49,811 nucleotides of DNA from Runella sp. GTDB lineage: Bacteria; Bacteroidota; Bacteroidia; Cytophagales; Spirosomataceae. Positions 7,340 through 34,641 of this stretch are shown piece by piece. The position numbers were made by a program, and so were the translations under genes. The DNA lies in contig NZ_JAIXST010000020.1 in NCBI RefSeq assembly GCF_027484545.1, forward strand, positions 1-49,811, written 5' to 3'. The notes below the pieces were generated by a model. That model worked only from the letters and a program-made list of their open reading frames with translations, was not told where the DNA came from and did not search any database. Numbering within the stretch: position 1 is the first letter of the stretch; each line of letters begins with the position of its first letter.

Positions 7340-7351
7340 TTTATAAGTTTG

Positions 7352-7401
7352 GGGTTTACAGTTTTTAGGTTAGAATGTTGAAACTTAAAAACTGTAAACC
7401 C
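7352..7401. terminator. 16-bp palindrome between converging genes
   Basis: GGGTTTACAGTTTTTA (7352-7367) and TAAAAACTGTAAACCC (7386-7401) are exact reverse complements. It lies between the converging oxidoreductase and DUF547 genes and can serve both. Further copies of the GTAAACT unit follow at about 7407-7420. The same GTTTACAGTT unit occurs inside the coding sequence at 31909-31939. Confidence 0.7.
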
Positions 7402-7433
7402 TAAATTGTAAACTGTAAACTACTTACTGCCAA

Positions 7434-23635: not shown

Positions 23636-23643
23636 AATGACTT

Positions 23644-23691
23644 AAAAACGACAAAAGCCCTGCGAAGGTTCGCAGGGCTTTTGTCGTTTTT
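23644..23691 (-). terminator. 23-bp perfect hairpin after the small lipoprotein gene
   Basis: Arms 23644-23666 and 23669-23691 are exact reverse complements with a 2-base loop, G/C rich in the middle (AGCCCTGCGAA) and ending in T5 on the minus strand. Among the strongest terminators in the window. It starts 9 bases after the small lipoprotein stop and sits 8 bases before the XRE start codon. Confidence 0.88.
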
Positions 23692-23700
23692 AGAAGCGAA

Positions 23701-31194: not shown

Positions 31195-34100
31195 TCAAAA
31201 TAAGTCAGGAGACTTTATTTGATACGATTGTGCCTTCCCGTCATTTGCAGTAAAAATCAACTGATTTCCTACCTGTTGTACATCACGAATGTCGCCTGTC
31301 AGATGCAAACCGGATTGATATTGAGGCAAATACTCGAAATCGCCTTTTCCGTTTCCTCTCAATATCATTCCATAATTGGCGTCGGTTTTACCAATTCGGA
31401 TGCGGAATTTGGATTGATTTCCTGCTAATAGAATATCCGTTTTACCATCTCCATCAAAATCGCCTGTGGAAATAGCGTAAACGGGCGAAATTTGAGCAGC
31501 TAAAGGCAACGGTTTAAACGTCAATTTTCCTTTATCATTCCACAAAATGCCCGATTGGGTTTCAGTAACCGTTAATTTGGTGGAACGCGTTGCCCACTCC
31601 TTTCCCAACACTTCTTCGGCAGTAGCAGCGGCGTAGGATTTATAATCAATGAAAAGTTTGCGCAGTGGCGCTAATTGCTCCAATGCCTCATCTCGTCCCG
31701 CCAAAGGAAAGGCTTTCCCCTGAATGTAATAAGAAATAAACGGGTCAAAACGGCCATTTTGGTCAAAATCGTCGTAATAAAGCGTAATGGGTTGCTCGGC
31801 GGTTGCTTTTAGCGGGGTATTTAATCCTAAGTTTCCTACTATAAAATCCAAGTCGCCGTCGTTGTCCAAGTCGGCGGAAGCGATGCGGTTCCAAAGGCCG
31901 GAAAAAGAGTTTACAGTTTGCAGTTGATAGTTTACAGTTGATTCTTTGTTTTTACTTTCTAATACCTGAATGGGTTTCCATTCGGCGGTAATAATTATTT
32001 CGGGGTGTTTATCATTGTTTAAATCTGTAGTTACAACATCGGTAACTAAACCCAACTCCCATTTTTCGGCTATCTCAAAGTGTCCTTTTCCATCGTTACG
32101 CAACAAAAAGCTTTCGCTGGCGTAGGGAAAATTGCCCGACTGAACACCACCTCCCAAAAACAAGTCCAAGTCCCCGTCCTGATCGGCATCAAAAGCTTCT
32201 ACACACGTTTTGTTAAGCGTGATTTCAGGAATCTGTCCCATTGGACATCGACTAAATTGGCCTTTGCCATTGTTAAGATACAGGCGGTCTTGCAGCAGCG
32301 CAAACTCGGTGTTATATTCACCCGTTATTACATATAAGTCTACATCTTTGTCTCCATCCGCATCAAACAAAACGGCATCTCGGTCTTCAAAAGCTTTATC
32401 CGCTTCAAAAGCAGGTTGAGAATTGGTTACAAAACGCTTGTCTTTTGTCTGCAAAAACAATTGTCCTGCTTGATTGGCTGCACCACCGATGTAGATATCT
32501 TCCAATCCGTCTCCGTTCACATCTCCTTTTGCCATGCGAGGCCCGCCGTAGGAATAAAGATAGAGCAGTAGAATTTGGGTATTGAAGTCAATCAACGGAT
32601 TCTCATGGTGAACAAAATCAATAGCCTCCGTTTCTTCAAAAATGGGTTTAGGTTGGGGCAATAACAAGGCAGGATTGAAAGGAAAGGCATTTTTTTCTTC
32701 GGCTACCTGTGTTTTGTTTAGTGTCACTTTCGGCAACAATTGACTTTTATTACTTGGCCAAAGCACTCGAACAGAATCTATCACAGTCGTTTTGCCCAGC
32801 CCAAAATGAAGGTCATCGTACATGCAAGCCTGAAAACCGCGCGTAGGGGTAAATTCCTGGTATTGCACCTGACCATTGGCATACACGTACACTTTGGCAC
32901 CCACGCCAAACAGGTTTCCTCCCTCCCCTTTCAACTTGATTTTGACAAAGTTTTGCGGATTACGTTCCTGTTGATGATTTAAGTATAGACTCGCCGGCTC
33001 GTTGGTATTGGAGGTAATGAGGTCAAGGTCACCGTCTCTATCAAAGTCGGCATAAGCGGCTCCGCAGGCAATCGTACTTTCCTCAAAACCCCATTCTTTG
33101 ACTTTATTGGAAAACTGAACTCCTCCCCTCTGAGGGAGGAGAGTTTCATTTTTAAAAATATAATGATGCGTAGGCGTGGCGGGCATTTTTTTGAGGTGTT
33201 CCAACAATGATTTAGTGGATTTTTGGCCTTCTCCGTTCATCTGCTCATCGGCGTAGTATTTCACAAAATCCAAATCGGTATAATCACGTACAAAACCGTT
33301 GGAAACAAACAAATCTTTCAGGCCATCATTATCAAAATCAGCTAACAAGCCCGCCCAACTCCAATCTGTAGCCTGAACACCAGCCAATTGACCGATTTCG
33401 GAAAACCTCATTACTTTATTCTTCCCGATTTCTGACCGCAGCGGCGGCTGCTTCTGACTCCTGACTCCTTGGTTCAACTGCAGCATATTCCGCATATTTT
33501 GCCAGTGAAAGCCATTTTCGAGCATGGCTTGCTGCACATTCCAGTTGTCGGGCCACGAAAGTGATTTCTGACGACGATTGTCTTCGGGCAACATATCCGT
33601 CGTAAAAATATCGGGCAAAGCATCATTGTTTACATCGGCAATATCAACGCCCATCGTAGAAAATGAAAAATGCCCCATCATCTCTTTTCCCCGTTCCGAA
33701 AACGTGCCGTCGCCGTTGTTGAGATACGCATAATCTTCTTCTACATAATCGTTGCAGACGTACAAATCAGGTTTATTATCCCCGTTAAAGTCACCCGTAG
33801 CGATGCCCAATCCGAAACCAAGTGCATTGCTGATAATAGCTGCTTCGCGAGTGACGTCGGTAAACAGCCCCCTAACCCCCAATGGGGGAACCATTATTCC
33901 CCCATTGGGGGTTAGGGACGGTCGCAGTGGCGCACCGCCGCCGCGCGGGCTTTCATTCCTGTATAGCCTATCTCCTGCATTTAGGTCAAATTCTTTTTTA
34001 AGGTAGGCAGCTTCCTTGCGTTGATAGCCGCGCAGATTGTGATTCAGCACAAACAAATCTAAATCTCCGTCGGTATCATAATCGAAGAATAAGCCTTGTG

Positions 34101-34641
34101 TAGAATAACCAGCATCGGCAATGCCGTAGGCTTCCGCCTGTTCGGTAAATTTTACTTCCTTTTGTGCTTTATTTGATACACCAAGATTTATAAACAATTG
34201 GTTTTTACGTTTTTCGACAGGGAGATTACCAGAATAACAAACATAAATATCCAACCAACCATCGGCGTTCACATCAGCAAGGGTCACGCCCGTTTTCCAG
34301 CCATTGGCTCGACCTGCTACGCCGGCATTATCGGTAATATCTTCAAAAGTTACTCCTTCCTCCGATGATTTTGTCGTATTTATGTACAGTTTATTAGGGA
34401 CTTGATTCCCCGTAAAATACACATCAGGCAGTCCATCATTGTTAAAATCTCCCACGGCCACCCCGCCACCGTTGTAGAAATATTCGTAGGCTAAAATATT
34501 GGACGATTCAGTCTCAGTAAGGCGATTTTCGAAGGAAATTCCTGTTTTAGAAGCATCAAGACGTTCAAAAAGTGTAGAGTTTGACTGACAATTACTTAAA
34601 AACAGCACGACTGCTATTCCGATTGCCCATCCTTTTTTCAT
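31195..34641 (-). CDS. Large FG-GAP/VCBS lipoprotein with ASPIC/UnbV domain (CRTAC1-like)
   Basis: About 1148 residues from ATG 34641 (34644 also possible), with a lipoprotein leader ending FLSNC. Repeated FG-GAP calcium-binding blades with DxDxDGxxD loops are seen (DFNNDGLPD, DVNADGWLD, DYDTDGDLD, DFDRDGDLD, DADGDKDVD, DLDNDGDLD, DFDGDGKTD). They build beta-propellers. An ASPIC/UnbV domain lies in the middle (GGNLFGVGAKVYVYANGQVQ; QEFTPTRGFQACMYDDLHFG). Such proteins sit on the Bacteroidota cell surface, often linked to glycan use; exact role unknown. Odd point: at four places, conserved spacing is interrupted by peptides that are encoded by palindromic or tandem DNA repeats (see separate entries). 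Lies 45 bases after the sugar nucleotidyltransferase gene and may be transcribed with it. Confidence 0.9.
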   Translation of the reverse strand: MKKGWAIGIAVVLFLSNCQSNSTLFERLDASKTGISFENRLTETESSNILAYEYFYNGGGVAVGDFNNDGLPDVYFTGNQVPNKLYINTTKSSEEGVTFEDITDNAGVAGRANGWKTGVTLADVNADGWLDIYVCYSGNLPVEKRKNQLFINLGVSNKAQKEVKFTEQAEAYGIADAGYSTQGLFFDYDTDGDLDLFVLNHNLRGYQRKEAAYLKKEFDLNAGDRLYRNESPRGGGAPLRPSLTPNGGIMVPPLGVRGLFTDVTREAAIISNALGFGLGIATGDFNGDNKPDLYVCNDYVEEDYAYLNNGDGTFSERGKEMMGHFSFSTMGVDIADVNNDALPDIFTTDMLPEDNRRQKSLSWPDNWNVQQAMLENGFHWQNMRNMLQLNQGVRSQKQPPLRSEIGKNKVMRFSEIGQLAGVQATDWSWAGLLADFDNDGLKDLFVSNGFVRDYTDLDFVKYYADEQMNGEGQKSTKSLLEHLKKMPATPTHHYIFKNETLLPQRGGVQFSNKVKEWGFEESTIACGAAYADFDRDGDLDLITSNTNEPASLYLNHQQERNPQNFVKIKLKGEGGNLFGVGAKVYVYANGQVQYQEFTPTRGFQACMYDDLHFGLGKTTVIDSVRVLWPSNKSQLLPKVTLNKTQVAEEKNAFPFNPALLLPQPKPIFEETEAIDFVHHENPLIDFNTQILLLYLYSYGGPRMAKGDVNGDGLEDIYIGGAANQAGQLFLQTKDKRFVTNSQPAFEADKAFEDRDAVLFDADGDKDVDLYVITGEYNTEFALLQDRLYLNNGKGQFSRCPMGQIPEITLNKTCVEAFDADQDGDLDLFLGGGVQSGNFPYASESFLLRNDGKGHFEIAEKWELGLVTDVVTTDLNNDKHPEIIITAEWKPIQVLESKNKESTVNYQLQTVNSFSGLWNRIASADLDNDGDLDFIVGNLGLNTPLKATAEQPITLYYDDFDQNGRFDPFISYYIQGKAFPLAGRDEALEQLAPLRKLFIDYKSYAAATAEEVLGKEWATRSTKLTVTETQSGILWNDKGKLTFKPLPLAAQISPVYAISTGDFDGDGKTDILLAGNQSKFRIRIGKTDANYGMILRGNGKGDFEYLPQYQSGLHLTGDIRDVQQVGNQLIFTANDGKAQSYQIKSPDLF
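31909..31939. repeat. GTTTACAGTT repeat inside the FG-GAP gene
   Basis: GTTTACAGTT at 31909-31918 and again at 31930-31939, 21 bases apart. On the coding strand this yields STVNYQLQTVN, placed between a VLESKN strand and the SGLWNRIASADLD block, where related proteins usually have a short FG-GAP linker. The same unit forms the intergenic hairpin at 7352-7401. Confidence 0.65.
33120..33141. repeat. CTCCTCCC palindrome inside the FG-GAP gene
   Basis: CTCCTCCC (33120-33127) and GGGAGGAG (33134-33141) pair around 6 bases. It encodes LLPQRGGV between YIFKNET and QFSNKVKEWG. In-frame, so the protein continues. Confidence 0.65.
33451..33468. repeat. GGAGTCA tandem repeat inside the FG-GAP gene
   Basis: On the minus strand, GGAGTCAGGAGTCAGAAG, two copies of GGAGTCA, followed by GC-rich sequence down to about 33409. 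It encodes part of an unusual segment (VRSQKQPPLRSEIGKNKV) between NMLQLNQG and RFSEIGQLAG, which in relatives are normally joined by a few residues. Confidence 0.55.
33868..33951. repeat. 84-bp palindromic insertion inside the FG-GAP gene
   Basis: Arms 33870-33890 and 33897-33917 are exact 21-base reverse complements (CCCTAACCCCCAATGGGGGA type) around a 6-base loop; a GC-rich stretch extends to 33951. The piece is 84 bases, exactly 28 codons, between YRNE and LFTDVTREA, which in FG-GAP proteins are usually separated by GDGTF-like linkers. On the minus strand it encodes a Pro/Gly-rich peptide with no stop. Confidence 0.85.

Follow-up and report, generated by a model that had tools for sequence, protein, structure and literature searches.

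A short palindromic repeat sits in frame within predicted protein genes, including those of core enzymes, in a Runella genome

Palindromic repeats inside genes are already known in two forms, as Rickettsia palindromic elements (RPEs) and as intragenic repetitive extragenic palindromes (REPs). RPEs, in the accessible portions of the literature, are palindromic sequences of about 105-150 bp present in many copies, both between genes and in frame within unrelated conserved genes (PMC2229807, PMC3733652, PMC10969869). The available text of PMC3733652 also reports REPs within open reading frames (ORFs), in tRNA synthetases and other genes, where dimers add 20-30 amino acids and stop codons (TAG) are supplied by the repeat; it records repeats at about the same recB site in two Xanthomonas species and names Bacteroidetes once, for CGTC repeats. 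Nothing like in-frame palindromes appears in the accessible part of PMC5771137, which deals with a Bacteroidetes carrying miniature inverted-repeat transposable elements (MITEs), and a literature search whose coverage left out most subscription journals found no account of them in Runella or its family. Here we analyse a 49,811-nucleotide stretch of Runella DNA (the window; contig C269 of genome G000, which comprises 7.12 Mb in 354 contigs), in which the gene for a CRTAC1-like FG-GAP/ASPIC protein hosts repeat DNA at four sites. The principal repeat, which we call E1, occurs throughout the genome.

E1 (AGCCCCCTAACCCCCAATGGGGG) has an arm of 23-26 bp, found singly or in inverted doublets with the flush ends AGCCCCC...GGGGGCT. 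G000 contains 76 arms at two mismatches or fewer, with the column consensus AGCCCCC[TCA]AACCCCC[AG]ATGGGGG, and a reversed-pattern control returned none. These arms form 64 clusters, of which 44 fall inside ORFs of at least 100 amino acids (41 distinct ORFs) and 20 outside; position was classified as genic or intergenic for E1 only. All 36 host ORFs that were scanned match a known protein family, the other five (135-867 amino acids) having been left out of the scan. By hand count, 22 of the 64 clusters lie within a conserved domain or alignment, as judged from family matches and, for LeuRS, from a separate alignment. The hosts are MiaB, AlaRS, GltB, IcmF, KdsB, a GH65 and two GH106 proteins, an alpha/beta hydrolase, two C39 transporters, an ABC ATPase, HupE, the ATPase domain of a histidine kinase, two AcrB-like pumps, LeuRS and four FG-GAP proteins, together with Ddl, whose cluster sits between two stretches of one domain and was counted as domain-interior. 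The remaining in-ORF clusters lie near termini, in linkers or in the unscanned ORFs. FG-GAP genes seem enriched among the hosts, taking 4 of the 64 E1 clusters (binomial P about 0.001, a rough value that assumes 14 genes of 3450 bp and treats non-independent same-gene copies as independent). Two solved KdsB structures among the matches shown do not have the KdsB insert, and the E1 residues of GltB stand in a 6-residue gap when aligned with solved GltB; the AlaRS structure alignments shown end ahead of its insert. Judged from its ORFs, G000 carries dozens of short, mostly hairpin-forming repeats in frame within putative protein genes, core enzymes among them.

All six readings of the arm are used by the 50 in-ORF arms (sense 19, 7 and 3; antisense 12, 7 and 2), and therefore no single peptide is being kept. 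There are 21 distinct inverted doublets (22 rows by a looser pattern, one appearing twice). The 14 listed with ORFs have spacers of 7-20 nt in nine cases and 44-101 nt in five, and the other seven have spacers of 49-88 nt; across all 21 (7-101 nt) no common interior was found by eye, and these non-conserved spacers count against E1 as a MITE. Of the 20 loci with E1 outside ORFs, 17 (all but L121, L129 and L137, set aside for their size) were scanned against Rfam for RNA genes together with locus L145, and none gave a match. Two host frames have unusual architectures. At L129:10272-12212 (contig C318 of G000), a single frame joins an NAD-binding/DUF1932 part to a PrpF part, and E1-type sequence lies where the two meet. 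At L121:12868-14670 (contig C226), residues 261-367 of a CoA-transferase frame also match the endonuclease-like DUF559, and E1 lies a short way ahead of that match.

The result that we regard as strongest comes from beyond the window: the contents of the KdsB loop alternate over 13 congeneric genomes. We searched and aligned LeuRS, KdsB and AlaRS across this whole genus set, and the same loop of orthologues holds different, unrelated repeats in different species. The KdsB loop contains E1-type sequence in G000, G010 and G007 (degenerate in the last), GTTTACAGTT-type arrays in G011, G012 and G005 (again degenerate in the last), GGAGTCA-type sequence in G003, G009 and G002, and other sequence in G001; it is short or carries no recognised repeat in G006, G008 and G004. 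In AlaRS the loop holds E1 in G000 and, by eye, 7-bp-type sequence in nine genomes, G006, G008 and G009 being without it; that of G006 folds as a hairpin (z -4.4). LeuRS has an E1-type doublet in G000 and G010, one shared empty loop in 10 of the 13 genomes and a shorter version in G005. A lag-7 periodicity test on four KdsB and four AlaRS heptamer candidates found that, among 500 shuffles, the observed score was reached by 0, 0, 5 and 0 for KdsB of G011, G003, G009 and G005, and by 0, 0, 28 and 0 for AlaRS of G012, G007, G010 and G005; loops without heptamers gave 392 of 500 (KdsB of G000) and 102 of 500 (AlaRS of G006). Hairpin folding is seen for the KdsB arrays (z -2.4 to -5.3) and not for those of AlaRS (z 0.1 to 1.2). 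A FastTree phylogeny of the three enzymes with the loops masked nests G011 and G012, which bear the GTTTACAGTT type, within G003, G002 and G009, which bear the GGAGTCA type (support 0.998 for the group G002, G009, G011 and G012). At least one repeat-for-repeat swap in the KdsB loop therefore follows, if the loop contents are read correctly. Separately, the LeuRS frame of G012 (L231, L233) is ~65 amino acids longer than most, and its two matches are interrupted at query residues 667-687, perhaps by another insert.

The window gene offers a close view of one such occupied loop. It runs from 31195 to 34641 on the minus strand and encodes a predicted protein of 1148 amino acids (the ORF is listed from an upstream TTG, and the translation is taken from 34641). 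Matches to PF13517 (FG-GAP_3), PF01839 (FG-GAP) and PF07593 (UnbV_ASPIC), together with a propeller fold in the structural model, fit the CRTAC1-like class; a relative in Runella aurantiaca (L031) is 77% identical over its best segment. Site 1 (33866-33951, minus strand) is an 86-bp E1 inverted doublet with a second, nested element, E2, and is predicted to encode SPRGGGAPLRPSLTPNGGIMVPPLGVRG. Its inverted arms (33868-33951) are 21 nt long, 100% complementary and 6 nt apart, and the stretch folds with a z score of -6.6. The coding strand reads AGCCC, then 30 bp, then CCTAACCCCCAATGGGGGAA, TAATGG and TTCCCCCATTGGGGGTTAGGGGGCT; the 30 bp (33917-33946, minus strand) are a long form of E2 that splits the left E1 arm after AGCCC, just as a 15-bp E2 splits E1 arms elsewhere. 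The loop has 30 residues here versus 4 in the orthologues of G012 and G009, which read RND-SGH-FTDV and RND-GGH-FTDV across the position. These comparisons confirm site 1 as a clear insertion, beyond chance. The loop is also short in G006, G008, G011 and G016, and it holds other sequence of middle or greater length in G015, G003, Spirosoma, Fibrella and L046. E1-related sequence recurs at this position: the G005 orthologue has an E1-type doublet containing E2-like sequence, an E1 arm or remnants occur in the homologues from G010, G004 and G007, and a G000 paralogue on contig C177, 46% identical overall, has a plain E1 doublet at the same codon. The preliminary description of this gene had taken sharing of the segments with other genera as a sign against insertion. 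A CCCCCAGTGGGGG remnant does occupy the loop in the orthologue of G018, which belongs to another genus; because the nearest congeners are empty there, we read this E1-like remnant as probable old or repeated occupation of the loop.

E2 (GCGCGGCGTACCGTCC) was counted in the 505 kb that surround all 76 E1 matches (49 stretches, the window included), a set chosen for E1 in which E2 outside E1 is under-sampled. There are 17 copies at one mismatch or fewer with none for the reversed control, 18 against 1 at two mismatches and 24 against 5 at three. Removing the stretch restores an E1 arm in 12 of the 18 copies (10 of them at 0-1 mismatch) and fails to do so in six; random positions restored one in 1 of 300 trials. 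The restoring stretch is exactly 15 bp in 11 of the 12, with ties broken toward 15. Either of the two C-runs of E1 can hold E2, a sign that it has probably inserted more than once. The long form in the window lies outside the 18, and its core has five genome matches at two mismatches.

E1 is spread unevenly across the family. A match at two mismatches occurs in 59 of 200 family genomes and, by the search tool's tally, in 17 of 36 genera; 21 of the 200 have at least 10 arms, with a maximum of 98 in G018. The control hits five of the 200, at most once per strand, and lone E1 matches may therefore be chance. Within the genus set, 10 of 13 genomes carry arms at one mismatch. At one locus, G010 and G007 are 87.8% identical over 5.4 kb and have several E1 copies in common, and a full doublet in a short-chain dehydrogenase gene of G010 stands opposite a degenerate E1-like stretch in G007. 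E1 forms the C terminus of histidinol dehydrogenase, HisD (L119:17465-18784, L186, L187), in G000, G010 and G007, and looks old there because it is common to all three. At about 3320-7000 of L186 (G010), E1 arms lie directly between one stop codon and the start that follows, and the first E1 bases form the stop TAG.

Set beside the published descriptions, E1 resembles RPEs in being a multi-copy palindrome (76 arms, 64 clusters) in frame in unrelated protein genes. It differs from them in its 23-26 bp arm or doublet, in host loops that are re-used by unrelated repeats and in the nested 15-bp module; RPEs belong to an obligate intracellular alphaproteobacterium, whereas the E1 host, of the Runella group, has a 7.1-Mb genome. 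With GTAG and CGTC REPs, as portrayed in the available text, E1 shares a short hairpin of the 20-40 bp class, frequent inverted dimers, tRNA synthetase insertions and TAG stops. Unlike them, it has neither terminal tag and is not mainly extragenic (44 of 64 clusters are in ORFs), and unrelated families alternate with it in a loop. What is new relative to these known elements, as far as their accessible descriptions go, is an untagged family in the Runella group whose clusters fall more often inside ORFs than elsewhere, with alternating unrelated families per loop and a nested 15-bp module.

We propose, with a probability of about 0.78, that non-autonomous repeats resembling REPs and RPEs spread through these genomes and that, where a loop can accommodate them, copies that stay in frame and bring no stop codon are retained by selection. 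The whole genome would then be laden with short repeats of this kind, the majority able to form hairpins, and the window gene would be one of their hosts. E1, the main repeat, would be mobile, copied around the genome by machinery outside itself; insertion is assumed to be broadly random, and selection would eliminate insertions that disrupt the reading frame, introduce stop codons or harm the fold. Genic copies that survive would therefore lack stops and keep the frame, and most of them apparently lie in loops, where they would be translated, add about 6-30 residues and be neutral. A loop tolerant of one repeat may tolerate the next, and E1, heptamer arrays and other palindromes would in this way come to alternate between species. 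The suggestion in the preliminary description that intergenic palindromes also enter coding sequence at tolerant loops is well supported at the genome scale, with most E1 clusters in ORFs and many within conserved domains.

Several points weigh against this proposal. The in-frame status of E1 is partly circular: hosts were selected as open ORFs, a reading-frame census of such hosts cannot prove translation, and it is the domain-interior cases that carry weight. The KdsB loop copies of G000, G010 and G007 share ends and may represent a single old insertion. Neither a target-site duplication nor an exact DNA-level empty site was established for E1 in the window gene, at the G010/G007 locus or in the three-enzyme alignments, and no canonical E1 lies in the flanks of 30 fetched Y1_Tnp loci, three of them from G000. 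Loop position was judged in a structural model for the window gene only. Sites 2 and 3 of that gene are weak if taken alone, and the heptamer tracts of sites 2 and 4 and of AlaRS have no hairpin fold. The case as a whole is built on DNA and predicted protein sequence.

Mobilization by a resident enzyme would give a more specific account, in which E1 is a true REP or REP doublet forming hairpins (REPIN), moved in trans by a Y1 transposase (REP-associated tyrosine transposase (RAYT), or tnpA-REP), with the coding copies a by-product. The hairpin arm, the inverted doublets of a short palindrome, the TAG stops supplied by the element and a copy number uneven between genomes all recall REPs and the REPIN/RAYT systems described in PMC6006769, whose accessible text also places tnpA-REP subclasses 2.4 and 2.6 in Bacteroidetes, subclass 2.4 with REPs inside the transposase gene. 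G000 has nine Y1_Tnp matches, but, going by coordinates, every listed E1 site is either more than 10 kb from these nine or on another contig. The absence of canonical E1 at the 30 fetched loci extends this pattern, and E1 and Y1 counts do not run together, G010 having 52 arms at one mismatch or fewer and a single weak Y1 match. E1 also has neither the GTAG nor the CGTC tag, and its doublet spacers are not conserved. We consider this account possible though doubtful, and we do not claim E1 as a member of the REPIN/RAYT class. Other palindromes do stand near Y1 genes. Two loose E1 matches at the Y1 locus L161 belong to another palindrome; near position 1286 of L160, beside a G006 Y1_Tnp gene, a CCCCC/GGGGG hairpin with CCCTACGGGGGAATC arms is E1-like in style and different in sequence; and a GGTTTTGAGAAACC hairpin is repeated about every 135 bp beside the sole Y1_Tnp match of G010 (L170).

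Retention for function, as mRNA hairpins or useful linkers in the host genes, would fit the strong E1 hairpins, the HisD C terminus common to three genomes and the copies at gene junctions that supply stop codons. It is an unlikely explanation for a repeat that is used in all six frames in functionally unrelated hosts and that alternates with unrelated repeats in one loop while close relatives do without any. Gene conversion among paralogous FG-GAP genes, rather than independent insertion, might have seeded the same doublet at the same codon in two paralogues of G000, which holds 14 matches to the window gene counting the gene itself. The paralogues are only 46% identical overall, though, and the same element sits in unrelated enzymes; we give conversion little credence. 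Palindromes arising by chance, and low complexity, in loops that vary by nature would suit site 3, which has no other close copy, the weak periodicity of site 2 and the varying loop lengths among relatives. The genome-wide copies of E1 and of the site 4 unit, each with a control of 0, refute chance for sites 1 and 4 only, and as a general explanation it is quite improbable. Finally, G000 is a fragmented draft of 354 contigs, but an assembly artefact is scarcely credible when the same repeats occupy the same loops in G010 (4 contigs) and in other assemblies. Beyond the proposed spread of non-autonomous repeats under selection, we offer a bolder reading only tentatively and think it rather unlikely: certain loops might be standing landing places for successive unrelated repeats, many of them hairpin-forming, with E2 as a 15-bp (five-codon) module entering the C-runs of other palindromes, in a layered, frame-compatible system that would remodel core-enzyme loops by an undescribed hairpin-guided insertion.

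The preliminary description held that the window gene had taken four insertions of repeat DNA, each between propeller blades. Repeat or palindromic DNA is indeed found at all four places, of which site 1 is a clear insertion; the four are not of one kind, site 1 being a palindromic doublet into which another module is nested, sites 2 and 4 heptamer tracts, and site 3 a palindrome with no close second copy. An AlphaFold2 model based on the window protein together with 18 relatives (mean predicted local distance difference test score, pLDDT, 77.5) has murine CRTAC1 (9etn) as its best PDB fold match (E 1.8e-25; template modelling score 0.74 by target length and 0.37 by query length). Rather than between blades, the model puts sites 1-3 between consecutive strands around an xN...xF motif: site 1 between strands 225-230 and 259-262 (pLDDT < 50 at residues 233-256), site 2 between 386-393 and 411-416, and site 3 between 494-498 and 510-512, the latter two overlapping segments with pLDDT < 50. 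Site 4 (residues 901-911), modelled with fair confidence, takes in the turn that follows strand 881-896 and the first part of strand 905-916.

Site 2 (33451-33468, minus strand) is a GGAGTCA heptamer tract in the loop NMLQLN...RFSEIG. Its unit has 12 genome matches, three of them exact (control 0), its lag-7 periodicity is weak (equalled by 16 of 500 shuffles, with lag 3 as high) and it has no hairpin fold (z +1.0). At the homologous loop, G012 and G009 have longer unrelated sequence, G010 has an E1 doublet, G018 and G005 have E1-like doublets, and the C177 paralogue of G000 has a different palindrome. Site 3 (33120-33141) is a palindrome, CTCCTCCC...GGGAGGAG, in the loop IFKN...VQFSN (fold z -2.3), a net gain of two amino acids over G012 and G009; it stands alone in the genome when up to three mismatches are allowed, and at four mismatches it has one relative, in L130, within the 505-kb set. 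Site 4 (31908-31939, minus strand) is an AACTGTA-type heptamer array of ~4.5 units whose 7-bp periodicity was reached by 0 of 500 shuffles (z 4.1). It adds a net three amino acids relative to orthologues and has no hairpin of its own (fold z +1.1), and its unit has 52 genome matches, some overlapping inside one array (control 0). The same unit had been said to form an intergenic hairpin at 7352-7401, and a heptamer hairpin made of it is present at 7348-7421 on the plus strand (fold z -7.1, lag-7 z 5.5). The earlier expectation that the units occur many times in the genome thus holds for sites 1 and 4, weakly for site 2 and not for site 3; that homologues lack exactly these segments holds cleanly for site 1 alone, as orthologues carry other sequence in the loops of sites 2-4. 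These three, as judged from the alignments, are loops with differing sequence in each species, not clean extra segments. A period scan of the 505 kb yielded six period-7 tracts, a single period-6 tract and nothing at periods 5 or 8-11; four of the six period-7 tracts lie in ORFs, too few for a placement test. Degenerate 7-bp tandem units scattered through the genome are familiar from the heptanucleotide short tandemly repeated repetitive (STRR) sequences of cyanobacteria. Site 4 resembles these in its degenerate 7-bp tandem units and many genome matches; the heptamers described here differ in that they also occur in frame within loops of KdsB and AlaRS and form hairpins in some places, such as 7348-7421 and KdsB of G003. 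Elsewhere in the window, 23643-23692 holds a perfect inverted repeat of 24 nt around a 2-nt loop; it has no relation to E1.

In-frame palindromes have been best known as a curiosity of Rickettsia and later as intragenic REPs, and here they are found in core enzymes of a large-genome lineage. The 13 congeneric genomes, with their loops filled, empty or differently filled, amount to a natural experiment on repeats becoming protein sequence. They make testable an old question, whether insertion preference or selection lies behind the pattern.

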